NCBI RefSeq assembly: GCF_001757355.1
Contig: NZ_MINO01000016.1
Location: 1-64,000 of the forward strand
Direction of reading: 5' to 3'
Source of the DNA: Sphingobium phenoxybenzoativorans
Lineage (GTDB): Bacteria > Pseudomonadota > Alphaproteobacteria > Sphingomonadales > Sphingomonadaceae
DNA length: 64,000 nucleotides
The position numbers and the translations under genes were made by a program. Position 1 is the stretch's first letter. Every line of letters starts with the position of its first letter. The notes below the pieces were generated by a model. It was not told the origin of the DNA. It was given only the letters and a program-made list of their open reading frames with translations, and searched no databases. Of the stretch, positions 1,870 through 52,011 are shown one piece after another.

Positions 1870-4458
1870 ATGCAAAGCCGCTTCAACCCGCTTGAGGCCG
1901 ATGCCCGCTGGCAGAAGGTCTGGGACGAGAAGCAGAGTTTCCGGGCATCCGACGACAGCGGCAAGCCCCGGTCCTATGTGCTGGAGATGTTCCCCTATCC
2001 GTCGGGGCGCATCCATATCGGCCATGTCCGCAACTATTCGATGGGCGATGTCCTCGCGCGCTTCCGCCGGATGACGGGGCATGAAGTGCTGCACCCGATG
2101 GGCTGGGACGCCTTCGGCATGCCCGCCGAAAATGCGGCGATGGAAAAGAAGGTGCATCCGGGCGACTGGACCCGCTCCAACATCGCCTCCATGCGCGCGC
2201 AGCTCAAGAAGCTTGGCTTCGCGCTCGACTGGAGCCGCGAACTGGCCACCTGCGAACCCGATTATTACGGGCAGGAACAGGCACTGTTCCTCGACCTCTA
2301 TGCTGCGGGCCTCGTCTATCGCAAGGAAAGCGCGGTCAACTGGGACCCGGTCGACATGACCGTGCTCGCCAATGAGCAGGTGATCGACGGCAAGGGCTGG
2401 CGCTCCGGCGCGCCGGTCGAAAAGCGCAAGCTCAGCCAATGGTTCCTCAAGATCACCGACTTCGCCGACGAACTGCTGGACGGCCTTTCGACCCTGGACC
2501 AGTGGCCCGACAAAGTGAAGCTGATGCAGGAAAACTGGATCGGCAAGTCGATGGGCCTGCAGTTCAGCTTTGCCGTGGAGGGTCCCTCGACTGCGCTCGG
2601 GACGAACGGGGCAGGGGACACTAACCAACATCCGTTCGTGTCGAGCGAAGTCGAGACACTGATCGCGCAACGGCTGGAAGTATTCTCCACCCGCCCCGAC
2701 ACCATTTTCGGTGCCAGCTTCGCCGCGATCGCCGCCGATCATCCGATCGCGCTGGCGCTGGCGAAGGATAACGCCGCGCTTGCCGCCTTCGCCGACGAAT
2801 GCCGCCAGACCGGCACCGCCGCCGCAGAGGTGGAAACGCAGGAGAAGAAGGGTTTCGACACCGGCCTGTCAGTCGTCCACCCCTTCGACCCAAACTGGAA
2901 GCTGCCGCTGTTCGTCGCCAATTTCGTGCTGATGGATTATGGTACCGGCGCTGTCATGGGCGTGCCCGCGCACGACCAGCGCGACCTTGATTTCGCCCGC
3001 AAATATATGCTGCCCGCCGAGCGCGTCGTCGCGGCTGATGGCGATGCGGACAAGCCGATCCATGACGAGGCCTATACCGGCCCCGGCAAACTCGTGAACT
3101 CGCGCTTCCTCGACGGCATGACCGTCGAACAGGCCAAGGCCGAGGTGATCAAGCGCGCCGAGGCGGAAGGCTGGGGGCAGGGCACCACCGTCTGGCGGCT
3201 GCGCGACTGGGGCGTCTCGCGCCAGCGTTACTGGGGCACGCCGATCCCGATCATCCATTGCGATACATGCGGCCCGGTTGGCGTGCCGAAGGCGCAACTG
3301 CCGGTCGTGCTGCCGGAGGACATCAGCTTCGACATTCCCGGCAACCCGCTGGACCGGCATCCCACCTGGAAGCATGTCGACTGCCCATCCTGCGGCAAGC
3401 CCGCCCGGCGCGAGACCGACACACTCGACACCTTCGTCGATTCAAGCTGGTACTTCATCCGCTTCGCCAGCCAGCCGTCGGACAAGCCGTTCGACCGCGC
3501 AACGGTCGAAAAATGGATGCCGGTCGGCCAGTATATCGGCGGCGTCGAACATGCGATCCTGCATCTCCTCTACGCCCGCTTCTGGACCCGCGCCTTGAAG
3601 CATATAGGCATGCTGGACATCGCCGAGCCCTTCACCGGCCTGTTCACGCAGGGCATGGTGACGCATGAGACCTACAAGGCGGGCGATGGAAGCTGGCTCT
3701 CGCCGCAGGAAGTGAAGAAGACCGGCGACGACTGGATTCATATCGAAAGCGGCCAGCCGGTCACCGCCGGCCGTGTCGAGAAGATGTCCAAGTCGAAGAA
3801 GAATGTCGTCGATCCCGATGACATCATCGACCAGTATGGCGCGGATGCGGTGCGCTGGTTCATGCTGTCCGACTCTCCGCCGGAACGCGACCTGCCCTGG
3901 ACCGAAAGCGGCATCGAAGGGTCGTGGCGCTTCGTCAACCGCCTGTGGCGTCTGTTCGGTCAGATGGATGCAGCGGCGACTGGCGACGACAAGGCGGTCG
4001 ACCGCAAGCTGCACCAAACGATCGACGGCGTCGCCCGCGACATCGAGGCACTGGCCTTCAACAAGGCGGTCGCGAAGATTTACGAGCTGACCAACACGGT
4101 GGAGAAGGCCGCGCCGTCCGCGTCGCGCTCCGCCGCCATCCGCACGCTTGCCCTGCTGGTCGCGCCGATGACGCCGCATCTGGCCGAGGAAGCGTGGGAA
4201 TTGATGGGACAGGAAGGCCTGATCGCCGACGCTGCATGGCCCGCCGTTGATCCGGCGCTGCTGGTCGAGGATGAAGTGACCGTCGCCGTGCAGGTGATGG
4301 GCAAATTGCGCGACACCATCACCGTGCCAAAGGGGACTGCGAAGGACCAGTTGGAGGCGCTGGCGCTCGCCGCCCCGAATGTGCTTCGCACGTTGGATGG
4401 CGCGACACCGAAGAAAGTGATTGTGGTCCCGGATCGATTGGTCAATCTGGTCCTATGA
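1870..4458 (+). CDS. leuS: Leucyl-tRNA synthetase
   Basis: 862 residues. Cytoplasmic class I aminoacyl-tRNA synthetase that charges tRNA-Leu with leucine. Visible signatures are the ATP-binding HIGH motif (IHIGHVRNY, about residue 50), the CP1 editing-domain motif STRPDTIFG (about residue 275), a Cys-rich zinc-like knuckle ([10 protein letters not shown]) and the KMSKS loop ([12 protein letters not shown], about residue 638). The C terminus [13 protein letters not shown] is the usual anticodon/C-terminal end. Residues 238-264, just before the editing motif, are encoded by an inserted palindromic repeat (see 2582-2659), so the protein is slightly longer than expected. The stop overlaps the lptE start by 4 bases (ATGA), indicating translational coupling. 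Confidence 0.97.
2582..2659. repeat. Palindromic repeat (family 2) inserted in frame inside leuS
   Basis: Two 29-base arms (2582-2610 and 2631-2659) are imperfect inverted complements, 23 of 29 positions matching by hand count, around a 20-base centre. The right arm contains TTCGTGTCGAGCGAAGTCGA, identical to the left arm of the intergenic copy at 51921-52011. The 78 bases are a multiple of three and are read without a stop. They encode the sequence beginning [11 protein letters not shown] and ending in VSSEVETL, which looks unlike LeuRS and is placed between GLQFSF and EVFSTRPDT. This is a mobile or amplifying palindrome tolerated in an essential protein. Confidence 0.82.
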
Positions 4459-10431: not shown

Positions 10432-10517
10432 GTGCTACTGCGACCCGAAGGGCGGCGAAGTCAACGCAGGAGCCCAGTTCCGACCTAGCAGCCAGTCTCC
10501 TGCTTTCGCCGGAGCAC
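10432..10517. repeat. Diverged copy of the sphingomonad 66-bp palindromic repeat
   Basis: The ends GTGCT... and ...GGAGCAC and the inner blocks GCAGGAGCCCAG and CTCCTGCTTTCGC match the repeat at 40356, 41823, 48346 and 51797, but the left arm is interrupted by about 20 extra bases. It fills most of the 159-base gap between the L,D-transpeptidase and the glutamate dehydrogenase stop. Confidence 0.7.
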
Positions 10518-16843: not shown

Positions 16844-16919
16844 GCCGCTTTAGCTCAGTTGGTAGAGCATCGCATTCGTAATGCGGGGGTCACAGGTTCG
16901 AGTCCTGTAAGCGGCACCA
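16844..16919 (+). tRNA. tRNA-Thr (anticodon CGT)
   Basis: A 76-base cloverleaf with acceptor stem GCCGCTT/AAGCGGC, D-arm around AGCTCAGTTGGTAGAGC, anticodon arm GCATTCGTAATGC with anticodon CGT (reads ACG, threonine), T-arm CAGGTTCGAGTCCTG and an encoded CCA end. Its 3' part from 16870 is the attachment site of the integrative element that follows, and the element's own copy of that part completes the gene. Confidence 0.96.
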
Positions 16920-16924
16920 TTTTT
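16870..16924 (+). repeat. Attachment site, tRNA side (attL)
   Basis: The 3' end of tRNA-Thr from the anticodon stem through CCA plus five T residues. It is identical base for base to 29000-29054, and the identity stops on both sides (A/T before, T/C after). The crossover itself lies somewhere within this block, commonly in the anticodon loop for tyrosine integrases. Confidence 0.92.
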
Positions 16925-28999: not shown

Positions 29000-29054
29000 T
29001 CGCATTCGTAATGCGGGGGTCACAGGTTCGAGTCCTGTAAGCGGCACCATTTTT
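29000..29054 (+). repeat. Attachment site, distal side (attR), orphan tRNA 3' end
   Basis: Exact copy of 16870-16924: the anticodon arm, T-arm and CCA end of tRNA-Thr without the 5' half. It is not a functional tRNA. Before it the element's right end has TTATAAAATCAATATA, similar to TTATAAATCAATAAG just inside the left end; these could be integrase arm sites. Confidence 0.92.
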
Positions 29055-51920: not shown

Positions 51921-52011
51921 CCGTTCGTGTCGAGCGAAGTCGAGACACGGTCGCACAGCGTTTTGCCTCAAGGTTGCGCAGAGGCTTCTCGACTACGCTC
52001 GAAGCGAACGG
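51921..52011. repeat. Palindromic repeat (family 2), intergenic copy
   Basis: Left arm CCGTTCGTGTCGAGCGAAGT (51921) continuing to CGAGACAC, right arm CTTCTCGACTACGCTCGAAG continuing to CGAACGG; inverted complements with a few mismatches around a 34-base centre. The left arm equals the right arm of the copy inside leuS. Together with the family 1 copy and the terminator it accounts for the 353-base gap between ftsH and the HxlR gene. Confidence 0.88.

Follow-up and report, generated by a model that had tools for sequence, protein, structure and literature searches.

Introduction

Dimers of inverted REP hairpins are the usual dispersed form in the REPIN/RAYT systems of Pseudomonas, and in Rickettsia, as reportedly described by Ogata and colleagues, palindromic elements (RPE) occur in protein-coding genes. 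E. litoralis and S. alaskensis are related to Sphingobium, the genus under study here. In the part of PMC3767692 drawn on here, RPE are dispersed in-frame palindromes found in conserved genes at solvent-exposed places, and their hosts include DNA polymerase III alpha and two tRNA synthetases, with leuS missing from Table 1. Different RPE groups lie near one site in orthologues, all aligned Rickettsia orthologues carry an insert at the site, and the choice between a hotspot and a common origin is left open in that part of the paper, with a leaning towards common origin (PMC3767692). According to the main text of PMC3733652, the GTAG/CGTC REPs are short, mostly intergenic hairpins that form dimers with the tags outside (HH) or inside (TT); in the CGTC families TT dimers are rare and have variable spacers, and a dedicated transposase is lacking for CGTC REPs. 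Some REPs are in frame within genes, among them tRNA synthetase genes of X. oryzae, E. litoralis and S. alaskensis, and the same text records an in-frame palindrome in DnaE of R. conorii and a REP site shared by the recB genes of two Xanthomonas species, with differing sites in the remaining genes of this category (PMC3733652).

In the text of these two sources, protein-coding palindromes (Rickettsia) and intragenic REPs, including those in tRNA synthetases, are known already. Beyond PMC3733652, searches of an open-access library turned up no report of palindromes in leuS by title or abstract, and no paper there joining REPIN, RAYT and Sphingomonas. An earlier note on the DNA analysed here knew of no description for the palindrome family concerned, a statement that has to be narrowed given the intragenic REPs already present in PMC3733652 and that holds insofar as the text of that paper, supplement aside, names neither 'leucyl' nor 'leuS'.

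Results

A REP dimer within the leuS reading frame

The window, i.e., the whole stretch of 64,000 nucleotides that was analysed, belongs to contig C16 of the draft assembly of Sphingobium phenoxybenzoativorans (G000; 5.04 Mb in 202 contigs). On its plus strand, leuS (1870..4458) encodes a leucyl-tRNA synthetase (LeuRS) of 862 residues with editing and catalytic domains (PF13603, PF00133), which among named genomes is closest to Sphingobium (best segment, 83 percent), and a search of the genome itself returned this gene as the single leuS match. The palindrome that the earlier note had placed inside this essential gene is indeed part of it. The whole REP dimer (2582..2659), whose tags face inward, consists of a first arm of 28 bases and subtype GTCCC/GGGAC on the minus strand (2582..2609) coding for PSTALGTNG, a spacer of 22 bases between the inward tags (2610..2631), and a second arm of 28 bases and subtype GTGTC/GACAC on the plus strand (2632..2659) coding for PFVSSEVET. 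The element has a minimum free energy of -45.2 kcal/mol and occupies, at residues ~238-264, the CP1 editing-domain loop that precedes the TRPDT motif. The leuS reading frame is uninterrupted across 2582-2659, in agreement with the claim of a stop-free insert, and with only one leuS in the genome and the frame intact, the insert is probably translated into the LeuRS protein.

The size and place of the insertion needed some revision. Its length of 78 bases had been stressed as divisible by three; the length is correct and the divisibility of no relevance, since the net change is 69 nt. Likewise, an insertion is present, but in place of the ~26 added residues first proposed the net gain over the empty loop is 23 residues (a loop of 58 residues in the window against the common loop of 35). 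Because the net change is 69 nt, about 9 nt of the former leuS loop seem, from the sequence, to have been overwritten. The insert does lie upstream of STRPDT, although not just before it, as it stops ~8 residues short of the motif, which starts at LeuRS residue 273.

A scan allowing up to 8 mismatches found the REP family at two window sites only, leuS and ~51.9 kb. The second copy (51921..52011) is an intergenic dimer with its CCGTTC tags outward, in contrast to the inward tags of the leuS copy, and the 26-base core of the plus arm in leuS (2632-2657) is exactly duplicated at 51921-51946. The stretch holding the ~51.9 kb copy has no coding signal, which bears out the earlier description of the other window copy as lying between genes. 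A second palindrome family, CTCCTGCGAAAGCAGGAG, has five window copies (at 10445, 40349, 41816, 48339 and 51790) and is rather like the CGTC-type REPs in the text of PMC3733652; both G334 and G240 have a hairpin resembling it in frame within dnaE. Identical 55-base repeats are located at 16870-16924 and 29000-29054, the first of them covering the 3' end of tRNA-Thr(CGT) (16844-16919), an arrangement that suggests they may be the ends of a 12 kb element integrated at this tRNA gene.

The arms belong to a dispersed hairpin family

The genome of S. phenoxybenzoativorans contains 31 half-sites in 21 elements at up to 3 mismatches and none for the pattern read backwards; the palindrome in leuS is therefore not a chance palindrome. 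Across the genus, 84 of 94 genomes carry between 1 and 122 half-sites each, with the backward control at zero in all 94. Using stop codons and a codon-usage scan independent of annotation, 20 of the 21 elements were judged intergenic, the leuS copy being the one element through which a coding frame runs open from one flank to the other. Six other elements lie between genes with the same frame label, yet the upstream gene's frame does not stay open through the element.

Each arm itself forms a hairpin with complementary variable stem bases, and the arms are therefore REP units, the hairpins of which are maintained by compensatory change. All three variable stem positions are complementary in 76 of 84 half-sites (against a mean of 23.8 and at most 38 after shuffling; half-sites from 60 loci, one pattern, up to 3 mismatches), and five complementary stem types occur among the arms. 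As is the case for REPs, the elements are short and dispersed, fold into hairpins with compensatory changes and are mostly intergenic. The genome is a draft in 202 contigs, and an assembly error or a chance palindrome might be invoked on that account, but such an explanation can practically be dismissed in view of the exact family arm, the open frame, the control counts of zero and the 14 further genomes in which other elements present the same picture.

PF01797, the RAYT domain, was found in 23 of the 94 genus genomes, and its presence does not track REP copy number in these genomes: G056, G062, G070 and G079 have 115-122 half-sites each and no PF01797, and G030, G076 and G087 have at least one PF01797 match and zero half-sites. 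A resident RAYT was consequently rejected as the general mobiliser, and comparing PF01797 with half-sites in the 94 genomes revealed no transposase attributable to the family. The sole PF01797 matches of S. phenoxybenzoativorans (C18:59598-59950; L111, L112, L206) are split into two pieces that differ in frame, and one of the pieces contains a stop.

The loop is empty in most relatives

LeuRS was obtained from 93 of the 94 genus genomes and the loop was read in all 93, giving loop segments of 33 (41 genomes), 35 (40), 43 (7), 44 (1), 49 (2), 58 (the window) and 74 residues (1). The loop is thus short, at 33 or 35 residues, in 81 of 93, and the insert of the window was found neither in the other 92 genus LeuRS nor in any of the 80 named LeuRS compared (L031-L110). 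Outside the genus, 58 of the first 60 family rows matched in two pieces could be parsed and all have segments of 31-36 residues; being the first listed, these LeuRS are more like the query. The alignment of relatives that the earlier note had proposed thus supports its case, and the situation it had named as fatal, an unlike segment in all close relatives, did not occur, the loop being empty in most of them. Long loops in L224, L227, L230, L234, L238 and L241 and in the genus loci L117-L125 (42-55 residues) were not counted as palindromes, as no repeat family was recognised in them. A second variable place in LeuRS is the region near residue 603-608, where L031, L093, L106, L109 and L110 are extended by lineage-specific segments 11 to 32 residues long.

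An AlphaFold model of the window LeuRS (mean pLDDT 82.6, built from 46 sequences) matches the fold of solved LeuRS with Z of 38 to 42 (LeuRS rows). Residues 239-265, which join strands 226-237 and 268-273, have pLDDT below 50, as do three other short stretches of the model, and the low values may partly reflect an insert that has no counterpart in the 46-row alignment. A low-confidence segment between two strands fits a flexible loop, albeit without proving one, and going by the model the insert most plausibly forms a floppy stretch that lengthens the loop preceding the TRPDT motif. Domestication of the insert, with a use in editing, tRNA binding or leuS expression, would agree with its retention in an essential gene and with the use of one and the same frame set by 11 of the 12 coding REP copies tallied. 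Such a use is nevertheless very improbable: relatives are without the insert or have unlike sequence in its place, any palindrome at all was found in at least 13 of 390 family LeuRS and in 0 of the 58 parsed two-piece rows, and the insert is predicted to be without order. We infer tolerance of the insert rather than benefit.

Unlike palindromes occupy the same loop

Palindromes from three or more unlike families fill the loop in at least 15 genomes, which bear nine genus labels. The 397 family genomes searched yielded 390 LeuRS matches, and 13 of the best 30 of these 390 loci hold palindromes as read from sequence and fold; the ranking used a query carrying an insert, and at least 13 of 390 is a lower bound. 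Together with G059 and G070, these 13 make up the count of 15. The REP type is present in the loop of G000, G168, G451, G290 and G121, the CCTCCCCG type in G070 and G183, and the GGGAGGGG type in G059, G412, G368, G260, G343, G321, G405 and G131. In G070, the nearest relative of S. phenoxybenzoativorans, the same loop contains the unlike palindrome CCTCCCCG...CGGGGAGG, which has more copies elsewhere in that genome, and copies of the CCTCCCCG type are dispersed in the genome of G183 as well. Six GGGAGGGG-type genomes show within-genome dispersal, with control counts of 2 in G131, 1 in G368 and otherwise 0. The assignment is weak for G059, whose palindrome, of this third kind, has one further genomic copy, and for G260, whose hairpin subtype gave 2 hits against 1 in the control and which was kept among the 15. 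The REP type, too, is dispersed within the genomes that carry it in leuS; the palindrome of G168 is partly decayed.

The distribution of these inserts was compared with the LeuRS phylogeny. A FastTree phylogeny of 238 LeuRS with the loop excluded requires 15 changes for four loop states and 12 for filled versus empty, and an IQ-TREE phylogeny of 53 rows requires 15 and 13, with at least nine changes forced by well-supported branches; the rows are enriched for long loops, and these counts are not frequencies. A single old insertion into leuS, inherited vertically or spread by gene transfer and later diverged or lost, might account for the similar flanks in G000 and G168 (ETLLAEGLEVF in G168) and for the frame and dimer topology common to the five REP copies. 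It is unlikely, however, because a single clade of the five REP-bearing rows is rejected on the loop-free tree (290 log-likelihood units worse, p-AU 7.95e-29), the spacers vary in both sequence and length (13, 16, 22 and 25 nt in the leuS copies with clear arms), the leuS arms of G290 (subtypes TTT, CTT) and G451 (TCC, TGT) are of the subtypes common in their own genomes, and two other palindrome families fill the same loop elsewhere. The loop inserts have several origins, and several families are found at one site.

Sister genomes can have different families (G451/G412, support 89; G121/G343, support 94), as do G000 and G070, which are nearest by distance (0.056) and whose fork is poorly supported in IQ-TREE. 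Either insertion is frequent in these lineages or the occupants replace one another. An occupant may have given way to another rather than a fresh insertion having entered an empty loop, but replacement is not favoured over fresh insertion because the 53-row tree shows no clustering of filled loops (13 changes, where shuffling gives a mean of 13.2).

Reading frame and orientation of the REP inserts

Eleven of the 12 coding REP copies tallied read both arms in the frames of PFVSSEVET and STSLDTNG and not in the arginine-rich frames (binomial 4.7e-5 for a chance of one in three), a tally that is partly biased, the protein queries having carried the found frame and the copies being partly dependent. 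The exception is the sir2 copy; the dnaE copies of G412 and G451, which are outside the tally, use the same frames as the majority. Stop codons were rejected as the factor forcing the frame choice, each of the six arm frames being open in some element of the own genome.

The tags point inward in all four leuS REP dimers that passed the script filter and, by eye, in the fifth (G168), versus outward in 41 of 41 other classified dimers (36 of 36 in the census outside leuS and 5 of 5 further ones in dnaE). Tolerance alone does not explain the tags-inward topology of the leuS copies. Because this topology occurs in 0 of 41 other dimers and the occupants differ between near relatives, the leuS loop could be a targeted hotspot with an insertion route of its own, which would yield tags-inward REP dimers and allow occupants to be replaced between near relatives; we regard this reading as possible, if doubtful.

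Inserts in DnaE and other genes

Two genes were surveyed, leuS and dnaE. For the DnaE site, 392 matches were obtained from 397 genomes, and 12 of the best 20 loci hold in-frame palindromes of about four kinds, as classified by reading in the 12 genomes; the other 8 of 20 (L353, L360, L362-L367) were left out of this count. The two lists (13 for leuS, 12 for dnaE) have six genomes in common (Fisher p 3e-7 with n set to 390 and kinship ignored), which makes repeat load the apparent driver at both sites. A single event may account for the dnaE copies of G412 and G451, as these are sister genomes.

The search for further intragenic copies suggested in the earlier note was productive. Among 30 REP loci in four genomes, copies are in frame in leuS and a soxA-like (sarcosine-oxidase-alpha-like) gene of G451, dnaE of G121 and sir2 of G290, and a further REP is located at the start of an EngB-like GTPase gene of G290, the real start codon of which is uncertain. 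The in-frame copies in dnaE, soxA-like and sir2 led us to reject leuS as the only gene hit. In the Sir2 gene of G290 (L318), the REP is situated in frame between two cysteine pairs that we take to be zinc-binding.

Discussion

The REP family is dispersed, its hairpins covary and the loop is empty in most relatives read. In our view, it is probable that a REP-type palindrome dimer in leuS is tolerated in a flexible loop and that several families have repeatedly entered the loops of leuS and DnaE. A REP dimer would have inserted into leuS and survived there by entering the flexible hairpin loop of the editing domain with the frame kept, and the frame used would give a stop-free peptide rich in Ser, Thr, Gly and Asn. 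The leuS loop and one loop of DnaE would be among the insert-tolerant places in essential genes. Since in-frame inserts are tolerated in these loops, unlike palindrome families would have entered them many times in Sphingomonadaceae, leaving close relatives with different occupants. The earlier suggestion of a mobile palindrome tolerated in an exposed loop gains from both the empty loop of most relatives and the in-frame copies in other genes.

The question posed by Rickettsia, a hotspot or a diverged ancestor (raised in the part of PMC3767692 drawn on here), is directly testable in Sphingomonadaceae, where some loops are empty, the filled ones hold several dissimilar families and near relatives differ in their occupants; the evidence favours repeated insertion at leuS. 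The inserts also matter as a case of selfish DNA acting as a source of new peptide segments in essential enzymes, and they provide natural insertion-tolerance data for LeuRS and DnaE.

Among the known systems, REPINs share with this family the tags-outward arrangement of inverted REP hairpins, seen in 36 of 36 census dimers outside leuS; in contrast to REPIN/RAYT, no PF01797 transposase tracks the family and the leuS dimers are tags-inward. With the GTAG/CGTC REPs, as portrayed in the text of PMC3733652, it has in common the short hairpins, the HH and TT dimers, the mostly intergenic location and the occasional in-frame copies, whereas by eye against that text its arm seems to differ from CGTC REPs in starting with CCGTTC and in lacking the AT stem start and the tail CCA. 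The likeness to the protein-coding palindromes of Rickettsia drawn in the earlier note is well founded, the insert being in frame in a conserved gene whose site is empty in relatives, and it extends to DNA polymerase III alpha as a host and to different groups near one site. Unlike in Rickettsia, as far as the part of PMC3767692 used here goes, the loop is empty in most relatives read, the families have dissimilar sequences and occupants differ between near relatives, and judged by the open-access library searched a repeated hotspot with changing occupants seems to be new.
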